41,107 nt of DNA from Paracoccus sp. (in: a-proteobacteria) (GTDB taxonomy: Bacteria > Pseudomonadota > Alphaproteobacteria > Rhodobacterales > Rhodobacteraceae): contig JAUNTL010000018.1 in assembly GCA_030538705.1 (NCBI GenBank), positions 1 through 41,107 on the forward strand, written 5' to 3'. This document shows positions 19,692 through 26,516 of the stretch, in pieces; positions within the stretch are counted from its first letter, which is position 1; each line of letters begins with the position of its first letter. The position numbers and the translations under genes are program-made. Under the pieces are notes generated by a model, which was given only the letters and a program-made list of their open reading frames with translations, searched no databases and was not told where the DNA came from.

Positions 19692-19775
19692 TGGTACCCG
19701 AGGTCGGACTCGAACCGACATGGATTGCTCCGGCGGATTTTGAATCCGCTGCGTCTACCATTCCGCCACTCGGGC
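19692..19775 (-). tRNA. tRNA-Leu(CAA)
   Basis: Read on the minus strand, an 84-nt cloverleaf with encoded CCA. The acceptor arm pairs GCCCGAG with CTCGGGT (one G-U pair). The anticodon arm is GCGGA, loop TTCAAAA, TCCGC, giving anticodon CAA, which reads UUG. A long variable arm, typical of class II leucine tRNAs, and the GGTTCGAGTCC T-arm are present. Confidence 0.96.
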
Positions 19776-21865: not shown

Positions 21866-23038
21866 TCAGCCGATCATGCGGCTTCCGGGGCCATATTGGG
21901 CCTCATAGTGGCGGGCCAGCCGCTCCAGCGCGAGTTTCAGCACAATCTTGCCGGAACGCGCTGACCAGCCCAGCCGGCGCTCGGTCATCTCCAGCCCTTC
22001 CAGATAGCAGCAGACCCGCAGCACCAGATCCCCCATGCCCGGACCAAGCTCGCGCAGCGCATTACCGACACGGGCACGGGCATGATCAGATCCGCCCTCG
22101 CGGCGCGGACCGCGCGCGCCCTCGTCAATGCCGGCCGTCAGAAAGCGGTCCCAGTTCTGGGCGATGCGCGGCCCCATCTGTGCAAGCTCGAAATCCTCGC
22201 GCAGACGCTCGCCGGCGGCGACCAGATCGGGGTGAAGAAATGGCTCGCCCTTGCCATCGCGGCGGCGTGCAAGCAGTTGCAGCGGGCTTTCAGACAGGTT
22301 GACGCGCATCCGGCGGGGCTTGCCATTCTCGGGGTCGGGCAGGGTGCGGGTGCCCCAGTTGCGGTGCTGCTCTGCGTGATCAAAGCTGCCGGCCGCCTCG
22401 TGCATGCCGTCGGCGGCCGAGGTGCCGACCGGGCGGGCATCGGCAAAATCACCCGCCAGCGGCAGCCCGCCCTCGCCCCGGCCGAGCGCGCGCAGCCGGG
22501 CGCGCCCGGCGCCCGAGATCGCATAGCGCAACATCCGCCCGCCGGCACTGCGCGGAACCGGCTCGACCCAGCCCTTCAGCGCGAAATCCTCGGCCACAGA
22601 ACGCTCCAGAATGGCGGTGCGGATGTCGGCGCGGGTGATGATCGCCTTGTCCATGCCGGGCGCCACGACCATCTCGGCACCCGGTTCGGCCAGACGCCGC
22701 AGAATGCGGCGGGTCTGATCGCCCGCGCGCGGGCGGGAACGTGCAGGCAGTTCCCCCAGCCCCAGGCGTTGCAGCGCATCGTCGATCAGCGGGTCGTCAC
22801 GACGGCTTTCAAAGCGGCGGATCCGGCGCAGGATGGTCGAGGCGTGGCAGCCGGATTCACGCGCGATGGCGCGGATCGAGCAACCTTCACGGACATGGCG
22901 AAGATACAGCTGCGCGTCTTCGATCAGGCTGGAATCACTGGCAACTCCGGCAGCAACGGGGATCGTTCCGGCCGCATCCCCCGCTGCGCCGGACCGGACC
23001 GCGCCGGCGATGCCGAAATCTGGCGTCAAAATGGTCAT
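21866..23038 (-). CDS. DUF6456 helix-turn-helix protein
   Basis: 390-residue cytosolic protein. A helix-turn-helix lies at about residues 50-80 (CSIRAIARESGCHASTILRR), resembling recombinase or sigma-like HTHs, and the C-terminal part (about 225-390, with RVNLSESPLQLLARRRDGKGEPF) matches the DUF6456 domain found across Rhodobacterales. Probably a DNA-binding regulator of unknown target. The ATG at 23038 has AAGGGA 7 nt upstream; the open frame to 23203 is rejected because it would swallow the shared upstream region. It diverges from the DUF6477 gene across 216 bp that contain phased TTCC repeats and small dyads, plausible autoregulatory sites. Confidence 0.85.
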   Translation of the reverse strand: MTILTPDFGIAGAVRSGAAGDAAGTIPVAAGVASDSSLIEDAQLYLRHVREGCSIRAIARESGCHASTILRRIRRFESRRDDPLIDDALQRLGLGELPARSRPRAGDQTRRILRRLAEPGAEMVVAPGMDKAIITRADIRTAILERSVAEDFALKGWVEPVPRSAGGRMLRYAISGAGRARLRALGRGEGGLPLAGDFADARPVGTSAADGMHEAAGSFDHAEQHRNWGTRTLPDPENGKPRRMRVNLSESPLQLLARRRDGKGEPFLHPDLVAAGERLREDFELAQMGPRIAQNWDRFLTAGIDEGARGPRREGGSDHARARVGNALRELGPGMGDLVLRVCCYLEGLEMTERRLGWSARSGKIVLKLALERLARHYEAQYGPGSRMIG

Positions 23039-23094
23039 GTTCGTCCCTTGTCTGTGACAGGACGGTCGGCAGAGATCCGCCCCATCGTTGGCCG

Positions 23095-23166
23095 ACCTGT
23101 GTTTTCTGGACAGGTTCCGGTTAAGCAGAACGGCATATTTCCTAACAATTCCTAAAGATTCCCTGT
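23095..23166. promoter_or_regulatory. Dyad plus three 10-bp-phased TTCC repeats
   Basis: In the divergent region between the DUF6456 and DUF6477 genes: inverted repeat ACCTGT-N9-ACAGGT at 23095-23115, then three direct units of 10 nt each, ATTTCCTAAC (23137), AATTCCTAAA (23147) and GATTCCCTGT (23157). One unit per helical turn puts the same face of DNA in register, as expected for cooperative binding. A smaller CTGT-G-ACAG dyad sits at 23052-23060. The binding protein is unknown; the HTH protein next door is the obvious candidate. Confidence 0.4.
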
Positions 23167-23254
23167 CCCGCAGGACGTTGCTCGGCAGAATCCCGCAACA
23201 CATCCTGAAGTTGTGCGAATGTCACGACAGCGATTTCGAATCGAAGGATATGAC

Positions 23255-23638
23255 ATGAGCTTTATCGCCGATCACGACCAGTTTCTCCGCCTTGTCCCCG
23301 CAGCTTCGCTGCGTCGTCCGAAAGCGCTGATTCGCGCGGCACGGGCCGGTCAGGGGGGATGGTGCCGCAACCGCGATCTGCCCCGGCTGCTGGCCCGCGA
23401 AAGCGCGCCCGCCGGCCCCGTGGCCCTGCGCATGCTGCGCGCGGCCGAGGCGGCAGCAGACAGCGCCCGGCGCGAGGGCCGGGCGGATTATGACATGAAA
23501 CGCCATGTTTTGCTGCTGATCGCGCTTTTGGCAGAGATGCGGGCCGAGGCCGGCGCGCAGCGGGATGGGGCCTCTGCCGGCGCCGCGATCTTGCGGTTTA
23601 CTTGCCCCGGAACAACCCGCCCAGCACGCCCCGCATGA
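23255..23638 (+). CDS. DUF6477 family protein
   Basis: 127-residue, Arg/Ala-rich soluble helical protein matching the DUF6477 family of Rhodobacterales (core RRPKALIRAARAG, then RNRDLPRLL and an RHVLLLIALLAEMRAE end). Function not known. The ATG at 23255 is preceded by AAGGA at 7 nt. In related genomes it is found beside a DUF6456 regulator, as here, suggesting a joint function. Its 3' end overlaps the convergent HerA-like gene by 41 nt, so the last dozen residues are coded opposite that gene's end and may be less conserved. Confidence 0.75.
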   Translation: MSFIADHDQFLRLVPAASLRRPKALIRAARAGQGGWCRNRDLPRLLARESAPAGPVALRMLRAAEAAADSARREGRADYDMKRHVLLLIALLAEMRAEAGAQRDGASAGAAILRFTCPGTTRPARPA

Positions 23639-25226
23639 TCACCTGTGTGCCAGAGCGGCCGATCTCGCGGGCGACGGTCTTGCCCAGAGTTTCCAGCACC
23701 GTATCGCTGCGCGACGAGCGCGCCTTGCCTGATGCGGTTCCCTGAGCGCCGCGCTGTGCGGTCGTCCTGGGGGTCGGGATTGTCAACTCTGGGTTGTAAC
23801 GACGGGCGCGGGTAAACTTCTCGTCCGGTTTGCCGCCGATTATCCATAGATCGTCGTCATTCGCGCCCGCACCGCTGCCGGCGGCGGTCTGACCTGACTG
23901 CCGCGCGGCATCCTCGGTCCGTTTGGTCAACAGCTCATGGGCGGATTCCCGATCAATGGTCTTGTCATATTTCAGCCCCATGGGAGAGGCCGCCATGATC
24001 GCCGCCCGCTCGGCATCGGTGATCGGGCCAAGCTGGGAAAGCGGGGGCCGGATCAGCGTGCGTTCAACCACGCCCGGCACGCCCTTGGCATCAAGAAATG
24101 AGGTCACGGCCTCGCCCGTGCCGACCTCGGTGATCGCGGTGGCCGTATCAAAAGCCGGGTTGGGGCGGTAATTCTCGGCCGCCATGCGCAACGCCTTCTG
24201 GTCCTTGGCCGTAAAGGCGCGCAGCGCGTGCTGAACCCGGTTACCAAGCTGCCCCAGCACGTTTTCGGGGATATCGGCCGGATTTTGCGAGATGAACCAG
24301 ACGCTGACCCCCTTTGAGCGGATCAGCCGCGCCACCTGTTCGATCTTGGCGACAAGCGCGCGTGGCGCCCCGTCGAACAAAAGATGGGCCTCGTCGAAAA
24401 AGAACGCGCAGACCGGCCGCGCCGGATCGCCGACCTCGGGCAGCTGCTCGAACAGCTCTGACAGCAGCCACAGCAGAAAGGTCGAATAGAGCCGCGGCGC
24501 ATTCATCAGCCGGTCGGCCGCAAGGATATTGACCACGCCCTTGCCCGAGGCGTCCTGACGCAGCATATCCGACAGCTCCAGCGCCGGCTCGCCGAACAGC
24601 CGGTCGCCACCCTCGCCCTCCAGCACCAGCAGCGCGCGCTGGATCGCGCCGACCGAGGCGGCGCTGACATTTCCATAGGTCAGGGACAGATCGGCGGCAT
24701 TCTGCCCGACCCAGACCAGCATGGATTGCAGATCCTTGAGATCCAGAAGCGCCAGCCCCTGCTCATCGGCGACACGAAAGGCGATGTTCAGCACGCCCTC
24801 TTGCACGGGGGTCAGATCAAGCAGGCGCGCCAGCAGCAACGGCCCCATCTCGGCCGGTGTGGTGCGCACCGGATGACCCTTTTCGCCAAAGACATCCCAG
24901 AATGTCACCGGGCAGGACTGATAGTTCAGCTCAACCCCGATACGCGCGGCACGGGCGGCGAACGCCTCGTGCAGCCTGACCTGATCGGATCCGGCCCGTG
25001 CCAGCCCGGCCAGATCGCCCTTCACATCGGCCAGAAACACCGGCACCCCGGCCAGCGACATTGATTCGGCCAACGTTTGCAGGGTTACGGTCTTGCCGGT
25101 GCCCGTCGCCCCTGCGATCAGCCCGTGGCGGTTGGCATATTTCAGCAACAGGTATTGCGCCTGCTTATAATCCTCACCACCGCCACCAACAAAAACAGTG
25201 CCTTGATCGTGATCGAGAATATTCAT
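23598..25226 (-). CDS. HerA-like ATPase, DUF853 family (YjgR type)
   Basis: 542-residue P-loop ATPase of the HerA/FtsK superfamily. Walker A is GATGTGKT (39-46) and Walker B FFFDEAH (275-281); an arginine-rich sensor segment (RLIRSKGVSVWFISQNP) follows. DUF853 proteins form hexameric rings; E. coli YjgR is the namesake, and its DNA or protein substrate is not established. The C-terminus (GTQVIMRGVLGGLFRGK) is typical of the family. ATG 25226 is favoured because GCAGGA lies 8 nt upstream; ATG 25235 would add three residues and lacks spacing. No nuclease partner gene (NurA, SIR2) is nearby, so this is unlikely to be a HerA-type defence pair. Confidence 0.9.
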   Translation of the reverse strand: MNILDHDQGTVFVGGGGEDYKQAQYLLLKYANRHGLIAGATGTGKTVTLQTLAESMSLAGVPVFLADVKGDLAGLARAGSDQVRLHEAFAARAARIGVELNYQSCPVTFWDVFGEKGHPVRTTPAEMGPLLLARLLDLTPVQEGVLNIAFRVADEQGLALLDLKDLQSMLVWVGQNAADLSLTYGNVSAASVGAIQRALLVLEGEGGDRLFGEPALELSDMLRQDASGKGVVNILAADRLMNAPRLYSTFLLWLLSELFEQLPEVGDPARPVCAFFFDEAHLLFDGAPRALVAKIEQVARLIRSKGVSVWFISQNPADIPENVLGQLGNRVQHALRAFTAKDQKALRMAAENYRPNPAFDTATAITEVGTGEAVTSFLDAKGVPGVVERTLIRPPLSQLGPITDAERAAIMAASPMGLKYDKTIDRESAHELLTKRTEDAARQSGQTAAGSGAGANDDDLWIIGGKPDEKFTRARRYNPELTIPTPRTTAQRGAQGTASGKARSSRSDTVLETLGKTVAREIGRSGTQVIMRGVLGGLFRGK

Positions 25227-25324
25227 GGGACGCATCCTGCGGCTGATTGCGGTCATTGCTGCATCTGGCAGCGGGGCGACAATACTAATTTAAGGTTCTT
25301 GTGCCAATCTCGGTATGTTCAGGA

Positions 25325-25394
25325 TTTCTTGTGCGTTTTCATTCTGAACACCTCCTCCCTGTTGGACTGCCGCGCCTTCGGGCGCGGCTTTTTT
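25325..25394 (+). ncRNA. CcsR/cuckoo-like small RNA with CCUCCUCCC loop
   Basis: A short stem AACA (25347-25350) and TGTT (25360-25363) displays exactly CCTCCTCCC as a 9-nt loop, followed after 5 nt by an intrinsic terminator. This two-hairpin plan with an anti-Shine-Dalgarno loop is the signature of the CcsR RNAs of Rhodobacter (the cuckoo RNA family of Rhodobacterales and Rhizobiales), which are stress-induced and affect redox metabolism. In Rhodobacter they lie downstream of a DUF1127 gene; here none is present and the RNA stands alone, divergent from the HerA-like gene. The 5' end is a guess based on a poor TTAAGG-N18-TATGTT element (25290-25319). Confidence 0.75.
25369..25394 (+). terminator. 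Intrinsic terminator of the CcsR-like RNA
   Basis: Perfect 8-bp stem GCCGCGCC / GGCGCGGC closed by a stable TTCG tetraloop and followed by six T. No protein gene ends upstream on this strand, which implies a non-coding transcript. Confidence 0.95.
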
Positions 25395-25416
25395 CCTGGG
25401 TAATGCAGGCATGCAA

Positions 25417-25436
25417 AACTGTCAAAAAGGACAGTT
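25417..25436. promoter_or_regulatory. Operator-like dyad
   Basis: Perfect inverted repeat AACTGTC-AAAAAG-GACAGTT. Its right arm overlaps the first two bases of the TTGACG element at 25435, a position where a bound repressor would block polymerase. It could also act as a hairpin in read-through RNA. Confidence 0.4.
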
Positions 25437-25463
25437 GACGCCCTTTGGCGCGGCCATTACGGT
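25435..25463 (+). promoter_or_regulatory. Putative sigma70 promoter of a second small RNA
   Basis: TTGACG (5/6), 17-nt spacer, TACGGT. Expected initiation at the A at about 25470. It lies between two strong terminators, so it would drive only a transcript of about 63 nt. Confidence 0.45.
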
Positions 25464-25469
25464 CCGCCC

Positions 25470-25532
25470 AATACTAAAGACCGGCCAGTCCGGCAGGGAG
25501 GGAAAGGGTCACGTTCGCGTGGCCCTTTTTTT
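25470..25532 (+). ncRNA. Candidate second small RNA, G-rich
   Basis: Predicted transcript of about 63 nt between the promoter-like element at 25435-25463 and the terminator ending at 25532. It begins AATACTAAAGACC, contains a CCGG...CCGG mini-hairpin and a GGCAGGGAGGGAAAGGG tract. CAGGGAGG (25494-25501) is exactly complementary to CCTCCCTG (25354-25361) in the loop of the neighbouring CcsR-like RNA, extended to 11 pairs with G-U. No open frame is seen. It may be a sponge or antagonist of the first RNA, or simply a leader. Confidence 0.4.
25503..25532 (+). terminator. Intrinsic terminator of the second candidate RNA
   Basis: Stem AGGGTCACG / CGTGGCCCT (9 bp with one G-U), TTCG tetraloop, followed by seven T. 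Its T-run faces the plus strand only. Confidence 0.92.
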
Positions 25533-25589: not shown

Positions 25590-25694
25590 CAAATTTATGA
25601 AGAGTTCATGTCACTTGCGATGACCATGGCCCCCTGACAAGCGCCACAACAGATGATAACCCTCTGCCGACCGCATTGATGCTAGGAGGCCATG

Positions 25695-26516
25695 ATGTCA
25701 CCGAAGAAATGTTCAACCGCGATCGTCGCGATCCTGATGCTGGGCGCCGCGCCGCTGATGGCGCAGACGACGACCCCGGCCGAGAATGCGGCCGCCGCTG
25801 CCGATGCAGCCAGCGACGCGGCGCAGGCCGTGCAGGATGCGGCCGCCGCCGTGACCGAGGCCGCCGAGGACGCTGCCGCGACCGCCAATGAGGCCGCCGC
25901 CGCCGCCAGCGAAGCGACCACCGCCGAAACCCCGGCGGCGGATGCACCGGCAGAAACCCCGGCAGATGCACCGGCCGAGGCGGCCGCCGCAGAGCCGGCC
26001 GAGCCGCAGATCGGGGCCTATTACGCCCGTGCCACCCATGGCGACTGGACGGTGCGCTGCATCCGGACGCCGAATAATGCCGATCCGTGCGAGCTGTATC
26101 AGCTGATGCAGGACGGCAATGGCAATTCGGTTGCCGAAATCTCGCTGATCCCGTTGCAGAACGGCCAGGCTGCGGCCGGCGCAACCCTGGTTTCGCCGCT
26201 GGAGACCGATCTGACCGCCGGTGTCGGGCTACAGATTGATTCGGGTGCGCAGAACACCTATCCGTTCAACCTCTGCGCGCCGGTCGGCTGTGTGTCACGG
26301 ATCGGATTCACCGATGCCGAACTGGCCGCGCTGCGCCGTGGCAATGCCGCGACTGTCAGCGTTCTGCCCTATGGCGCCCCGCGCGAGGATATCGTGAATC
26401 TGCGCATGTCGCTGACAGGGTTCACCGCCGGCTTTACCGAGCTGGAGGCGGCTCATGCAGAAATGCGCGCCGCAGCCGAAGCAGCGGCAGAGACCGAGGC
26501 CGCGCCGGCACAATAA
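25695..26516 (+). CDS. Invasion-associated locus B (IalB) family protein with Ala-rich spacer
   Basis: 273-residue exported protein. A signal peptide (MSPKKCSTAIVAILMLGAAPLMA) is followed by an 80-residue low-complexity Ala/Glu/Thr/Pro segment (about 28-108) and then an IalB domain (about 112-260; YYARATHGDWTVRCIR and NLCAPVGCVSRIGF with paired cysteines). IalB proteins are periplasmic or envelope proteins first linked to erythrocyte entry in Bartonella; in free-living relatives the role is unknown. Two ATGs exist; 25695 lies 5 nt after a perfect AGGAGG, 25692 only 2 nt, so 25695 is preferred. A bidirectional terminator follows. Confidence 0.88.
   Translation: MSPKKCSTAIVAILMLGAAPLMAQTTTPAENAAAAADAASDAAQAVQDAAAAVTEAAEDAAATANEAAAAASEATTAETPAADAPAETPADAPAEAAAAEPAEPQIGAYYARATHGDWTVRCIRTPNNADPCELYQLMQDGNGNSVAEISLIPLQNGQAAAGATLVSPLETDLTAGVGLQIDSGAQNTYPFNLCAPVGCVSRIGFTDAELAALRRGNAATVSVLPYGAPREDIVNLRMSLTGFTAGFTELEAAHAEMRAAAEAAAETEAAPAQ

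Follow-up and report, generated by a model that had tools for sequence, protein, structure and literature searches.

The window analysed here is a stretch of 41,107 nucleotides from a draft genome of Paracoccus sp. (205 contigs, 86.6% complete). The gap between its herA-like and ialB-like genes carries two putative small RNA genes, RNA1 and RNA2, both on the plus strand. The herA-like gene (HerA_C; PF05872, E 2.9e-209) runs divergently on the minus strand at 23598..25256. RNA1 lies at 25314..25394 with an approximate 5' end, delimited by fold, Rfam SorX/SorY matches and conservation. RNA2 starts 75 bases downstream of RNA1 and spans about 25470..25532, its start taken from its promoter and its identity from conservation, fold and complementarity. 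The ialB-like gene (PF06776, E 3.2e-35) follows at 25692..26516 (+) and has its own promoter-like element, CTGACA-N17-GATAAC at 25634-25662, recognised by eye. The preliminary description of the locus had noted an adjacent HerA-like gene and no same-strand coding gene before the feature. Both observations hold, the upstream neighbour being the divergent HerA_C-family gene. In the synteny listing of the locus herA adjoins in 24/26 cases and ialB in 25/26.

The interval 25257-25313 between herA and RNA1 contains conserved GACAATAC, TTAA and TGTGCCAG and reads as a minus-strand herA promoter, a sigma70-like TTGGCA-N17-TATTGT (assigned by eye) that overlaps the stretch upstream of RNA1. Conservation upstream of RNA1 would thus be due, at least in part, to the herA promoter. 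A search by eye of the same upstream sequence found no RpoH-like promoter for RNA1; the conserved TTAA in the spacer of the herA promoter may serve an RNA1 promoter. Beyond herA lie divergent DUF6456 (-) and DUF6477 (+) genes (21866-23638), both from families of unknown function. Just one feature of the window reaches the Rfam gathering level, a tRNA gene at 19695-19775 (-) whose variable arm is long (57.2 bits).

RNA1 and its relatives

In its predicted fold RNA1 consists of a 10-bp 5' hairpin, with arms UGUUCAGGAU (25316..25325) and AUUCUGAACA (25341..25350), a single-stranded core CCUCCUCCCUGUUGGACU (25351..25368) and an intrinsic terminator GCCGCGCC-TTCG-GGCGCGGC with an 8-bp stem and T6 (25369..25394), all on the plus strand. 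The fold of 25314-25396 has a z-score of -4.58, and 0/200 shuffles were as good. The preliminary description had proposed an AACA/TGTT stem-loop followed by a terminator. AACACCTCCTCCCTGTT, the TTCG-capped 8-bp terminator and the six T are indeed present at 25347-25394 (+). The AACA/TGTT hairpin is absent from the minimum-energy folds, and its AACA belongs to the 3' arm of the 10-bp stem, whose 5' arm lies nearly all upstream of position 25325, where that description began the feature. Its idea that Shine-Dalgarno sequences could be bound here remains plausible, as the pyrimidine-rich single-stranded stretch would suit such pairing.

A DNA search with 25290-25400 returned matches in 59/61 genomes of the genus and in 0/40 others. 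In 46 of the genus genomes (hand count) the match has at least 89% identity and an E value of 1.1e-8 or better, and the best 30 of these 46 loci (L002-L031, own locus included) form the genus set used below. About 42/61 genus genomes (hand count) hold a second match of 81-86% identity over query positions 65-105, probably a paralogue. All 30 loci of the genus set can form a 5' stem of 9-14 bp that ends 4-7 nt before the core, built from 20 different arm pairs. Under a similar criterion 30/30 genus loci compare with 1119/3000 shuffles, and 23/29 loci from other genera with 1158/2900 shuffles. The hairpin energy by itself is only moderately unusual (mean z -1.9; in 12/29 loci at most 5/100 shuffles equalled it). 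RNAalifold on a MAFFT alignment of the RNA1 loci recovered the terminator only, the 5' hairpin varying too much for sequence alignment, and the hairpin was then assessed sequence by sequence. Taken together, plan and conservation make it very probable that RNA1 encodes a small regulatory RNA.

SorX and SorY are induced in an RpoHI/RpoHII-dependent manner, bind Hfq and regulate potA or takP. Their common core (CCUCCCUGUUGGA) is also the core of RNA1, which in addition resembles the alphaR8 10-mer UUUCCUCCCU; CCTCCCTGTTGGA occurs at two sites in the own genome, both exact. In a permissive Rfam scan of RNA1, SorX was the best match (36.7 bits, E 2.5e-7; gathering cut-off 46.6), followed by SorY (30.2 bits, E 3.1e-4; cut-off 111), and suhB/alphaR8 reached 15.4 bits (E 1.4). 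The Rfam cut-offs were passed neither by RNA1 nor by any of 40 sibling loci (0/40). UUCCUCCCU is present in 29/30 genus loci, and the own genome reads CCUCCUCCCU. The sibling L205 scores 40.8 bits with suhB, next to the cut-off of 41, as well as 34.0 bits with SorX, which places RNA1 between the Sor and alphaR8 families.

RNA1 shares with SorX (RF02784) the 5' hairpin, the single-stranded core and the terminator. The clear SorX copies L057, L093, L055 and L119, however, score 75-87 bits, and RNA1 sits at herA/ialB, whereas SorX lies in an ompR-type 3' UTR according to the available text of PMC6238624. SorX and SorY are RNAs of Rhodobacter sphaeroides. In the excerpts available (PMC6238624, PMC8307010, PMC9438474), SorX is Hfq-dependent, stems from that 3' UTR and lowers potA translation, and the target of SorY is the mRNA of a malate transporter. 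SorY has its own promoter (PMC6238624). The core of SorY (RF02651) is identical to that of RNA1, but RNA1 remains far below the SorY cut-off, and a copy with a SorY-like hairpin lies elsewhere in the genome, at C160:247-298 (-) (locus L033), upstream of purL (profile match E 1.4e-14). The alphaR8/suhB kind (MmgR, SisA-D; RF00519) combines a weak hairpin, a single-stranded 10-mer and a terminator (PMC12559287, available text). In most species an N-formylglutamate amidohydrolase gene is adjacent to it (PMC12559287, same text), whereas RNA1 does not lie beside such a gene and scores low with the model. We regard RNA1 as a newly found relative of the known stress sRNAs.

RNA2 and its distribution

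The region 25435-25532 (+) comprises a sigma70-like promoter TTGACG-N17-TACGGT with conserved hexamers (25435..25463), then AAAGACCGGCCAGTCCGGCAGGGAG, and then an intrinsic terminator recognised from its sequence (25506..25532, +). The predicted RNA runs from a small hairpin CCGG-CCAGU-CCGG (25481..25493, +) through AGGGAG to the terminator; most of AGGGAG falls outside the hairpin, and among the loci examined it varies very little. The conserved block, GGCCAGUCCG[A/G]CAGGGAG, is preceded by GTTGAC in 31/31 loci of the genus set used for RNA2. GTTGAC is invariant in the 31 aligned loci, and TAGCGT is a common -10 element among relatives. An end hairpin is present as well; in a few copies, such as L014, L022, L023 and L150, its T run is poor or missing. 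The small hairpin pattern occurs in 62/62 loci, as GUCGG-CCAGU-CCGAC in most genera and CCGG-CCAGU-CCGG in the own genus. Its second pair is C-G in 32 of the 62, U-A in 16, U-G in 13 and broken in 1, and in 31 an A-C mismatch stands in place of the outermost pair. Folded on its own, RNA2 has a minimum-energy structure that pairs these bases slightly differently.

Rfam recognised no family over the own RNA2 (best E 2.7) and gave no match at gathering level over RNA2 in 40 loci; eight sibling loci yielded a single match, Atu_C8 with 24.2 bits (E 0.75; cut-off 50). A small protein gene was considered and rejected as unlikely: the ATG of most genus copies is missing in the own genome (AATACTAAAG), and L027 has a TAG in frame with the ATG (by eye).

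For a wider search a sequence-only model of 76 positions, holding no base pairs, was built from the 31 genus-set loci. At E<=0.01 it matched 199/295 Rhodobacteraceae genomes, 122 of them below 1e-4 (hand count); the remaining 96/295, including G044 from the own genus, gave no match at this threshold. Outside the family it matched 12/237 genomes (from a class-wide sample of 240), none better than 4.2e-4. These matches, weak and for the most part partial, were treated as background. At E<=0.01 this background is about 5%, so chance may account for some of the 199. Where a family genome lacks the exact Sor pattern, an RNA2 match is rare (2/23: G113, G300), compared with 197/272 of those with the pattern (Fisher p 1.6e-9, ignoring phylogeny).

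Synteny was inspected down to an E value of 2.9e-4. The 29 best non-own RNA2 loci have ialB beside them in 29 cases and herA in 27. A sample of weaker loci (E 1.0e-4 to 2.9e-4; 20 loci from consecutive rows, after removal of a second, partial match in G184) has ialB beside 20 and herA beside 16. RNA2 thus precedes ialB in 49/49 non-own loci inspected, with herA beside 43/49. In other genera relatives of RNA1, often with the core CUUCCUCCCUGUCAGACUGGCCG, lie upstream of RNA2 in the same gap; they were recognised in 29/32 loci with RNA2 and in 11/20 of the weaker loci, one more being doubtful. No RNA1 was recognised in the other 3/32 and 9/20 loci carrying RNA2, so RNA1 cannot be the sole partner of RNA2.

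Predicted pairing of RNA2 with the Sor core

The RNA2 segment AGUCCGGCAGGGAGG (25487..25501, +) is complementary over 15 nt to CCUCCCUGUUGGACU of RNA1 (13 Watson-Crick and 2 G-U pairs). In reverse complement the conserved RNA2 block reads CUCCCUG[UC]CGGACUGGCCG, which comes close to the Sor core joined to the foot of the SorX terminator. Predicted RNA1-RNA2 duplexes average -34.8 kcal/mol in the 30 genus loci (-18.7 with shuffled RNA2) and -36.1 kcal/mol in 29 loci from other genera (-17.2 with shuffled RNA2). L150 was left out of this set, its RNA1 being cut by the locus end, and the further own-locus copies L032, L045 and L180 were not counted a second time. None of 500 shuffles matched the duplex in 27/30 genus loci and 26/29 loci of other genera (53/59, pairs that come from relatives and are not independent), and at most 5/500 shuffles did so in the remaining 6/59. 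The pairing is not perfect: one A-C mismatch with RNA2 arises from the RNA1 core found in most other genera (GUCAGAC), and L015, L016, L019 and L028 carry a G to A change in the RNA1 core without a compensating change in RNA2.

Complementarity extends to other Sor-core RNAs of the same genome. In 18/18 pairs from 11 genomes, those with Sor sequences among the matches listed, 0/500 shuffles were as good, with energies from -34.0 to -45.3 kcal/mol; these pairs, too, come from relatives and are not independent. The fit of RNA2 to the Sor RNAs is often better than its fit to RNA1. Among 16 comparable pairs, 14 are as strong as the RNA1 pair within 4 kcal/mol, or stronger; both exceptions are in L187. 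When whole molecules of the own genome are paired with RNA2, RNA1 gains -20.0 kcal/mol (shuffle mean -8.2) and the purL-side Sor RNA -23.7 kcal/mol (shuffle mean -9.2), with 0/200 shuffles as good in either case. In sum, RNA2 is conserved widely, bears no label so far, and has an anti-Sor core that is striking.

The sponge CrfA of Caulobacter crescentus offers a model. According to the available text of PMC12559287, CrfA acts as a sponge of SisA-D, sibling sRNAs with the core UUUCCUCCCU; a G/A-rich part of CrfA is complementary to their CCUCCCU core, and the pairing was demonstrated by probing and compensatory changes. The likeness of RNA2 to CrfA is one of description, and there are several differences: CrfA is induced by carbon starvation (PMC12559287, same text), whereas the RNA2 promoter is sigma70-like; RNA2 adjoins one of the siblings; and of 237 genomes outside the family none gave a convincing match to it. 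By analogy with CrfA/SisA-D, RNA2 is likely an anti-Sor sponge. We consider it reasonably probable, taking the parts jointly, that the gap holds a tandem of two small RNA genes, RNA1 then RNA2, that RNA1 is an unrecognised sibling of the stress RNAs SorX/SorY and of the alphaR8/suhB kind, and that RNA2 is their sponge.

The predicted mechanism runs as follows. The core CCUCCCUGUUGGAC of RNA1 would pair with Shine-Dalgarno regions of mRNAs and cover their ribosome-binding sites as SorX and SorY do, probably with the help of Hfq. RNA2, presumably transcribed from its own house-keeping, sigma70-like promoter, would expose AGGGAG beside the small hairpin with its CCAGU loop and pair with the cores of RNA1, SorX and SorY-like RNAs along some 15-20 nt. 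It would thereby capture and inactivate the Sor siblings and set a threshold that stress-induced Sor RNA has to exceed. The broadest version, in which RNA2 is a sponge kept by most Rhodobacteraceae, holds down the whole SorX/SorY/RNA1 set while cells are unstressed and lies back to back with the gene for one of its targets, the two moving together as a cassette of regulator and antidote between herA and ialB, seems to us evenly balanced between true and false.

The stricter association of RNA2 with ialB than with herA or RNA1 would be expected if RNA2 were a terminated leader of ialB, an attenuator or target site at which Sor binding controls read-through. We regard this as rather unlikely, given that RNA2 is followed by a terminator and that ialB has in front of it a sigma70-like promoter of its own (by eye), and a leader role is not demonstrable from synteny alone. 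It is also unlikely that RNA2 is an ordinary sRNA with mRNA targets of its own, whose anti-Sor likeness is a now functionless relic of an inverted duplication. Read in reverse complement, RNA1 is indeed so similar to RNA2 that a loose pattern mixed them up, and the RNA2 block is partly accounted for by its own hairpin. AGGGAG, however, lies mostly outside that hairpin and hardly varies, and complementarity is also kept to SorX and purL-side Sor RNAs elsewhere in the genome. That the gap holds merely terminators and promoters of the neighbour genes and no functional RNA appears very improbable: both RNAs are known here from sequence alone, but no same-strand gene enters RNA1, and both RNA cores lie outside promoters and terminators.

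Targets of SorX and SorY are known, and the portions of the literature on these RNAs and on Rhodobacteraceae sponges that were available name no RNA holding them in check and contain no match to the core sequence; the original SorX/SorY papers or their supplements might mention one. If RNA2 is a true sponge, it would be a brake on the Sor network that can be tested in strains of Rhodobacter, Paracoccus and the Roseobacter group. It would also be the second alphaproteobacterial case after CrfA/SisA-D aimed at siblings with a CCUCCCU core, and such a second case would suggest that CCUCCCU-core sRNA families repeatedly acquire an antidote.

CcsR-like and Sor-like loci elsewhere

Cuckoo is a name for RNAs of the CcsR1-4 type, and ccaF1 is a DUF1127 gene. 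The preliminary description had taken RNA1 for a CcsR/cuckoo-type RNA that has lost, or never had, its DUF1127 partner, a reading we now find scarcely credible. In its favour, RNA1 of the own genome has the exact motif CCTCCTCCC, which occurs once in the window (chance expectation 0.36), and a possible 4-bp stem. Likewise, the CCUCCUCCC of the CcsR1-4/cuckoo family (RF02791) is found in this RNA1; in the available text of PMC3927594 it is placed in a CcsR hairpin loop, and in that of PMC8625941 CcsR is cut from the 3' UTR of ccaF1. RNA1, however, lacks a conserved loop stem, and its neighbours are herA and ialB, not a DUF1127 gene. The covariance model for CcsR1 scores RNA1 at noise level (15.4 bits, E 0.39, or 0.083 on a shorter stretch; cut-off 65.3), and the SorX model fits far better (36.7 bits). 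Neither stem nor loop is kept in related genomes: AACA...TGTT occurs in 5/30 genus loci and exact CCTCCTCCC in 1/30, the own locus, the others reading TTCCTCCC. The supposed family mark is a one-base peculiarity of the own genome among the 30 loci.

Nor has a partner gone missing. The own genome has a single DUF1127 match (E 3.1e-12, contig C79), directly followed by a CcsR-like array with eight CCTCCTCCC motifs (C79:31067-31593 (-), locus L001), so nothing is orphaned. At best 42.9 bits (E 4.8e-9), this array is missed by the Rfam CcsR1 model at gathering level. The array was also considered as a target of an RNA2 sponge and rejected: its eight 70-nt pieces gain -2.0 to -8.4 kcal/mol, which is background.

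Across GTDB species genomes the pattern CCTCCCTGTTGGAC-N12-42-TTTTTT found at least 118 stretches; the Sor-core carriers among the 80 matches listed are, we assume, Rhodobacterales or unresolved Alphaproteobacteria. Their loci fall into three classes: purL-side, high-scoring SorX, and herA-side, the class of the window. The range of 75-87 bits given above for SorX comes from the four examples of the second class that were scanned, and in both loci read, L057 and L093, a response-regulator-like frame precedes SorX (by eye). The purL-side class is provisionally equated with SorY solely on the likeness of its hairpin to the Rfam consensus, and L081 gave no match above the SorY cut-off of 111. Although its hairpin is SorY-like, the purL-side RNA of the own genome scores 47.9 bits with SorX, above the cut-off of 46.6, and the purL-side copy in L123 does likewise (48.0 bits); the Rfam SorX and SorY models overlap in the sequences they catch. 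Some Rhodobacteraceae records carry several Sor cores on one strand within about 100-850 bases (L055 at 3777 and 3892; L131 at 6055 and 6159; L092 at 2193, 2907 and 3038), which suggests local duplication of Sor genes.
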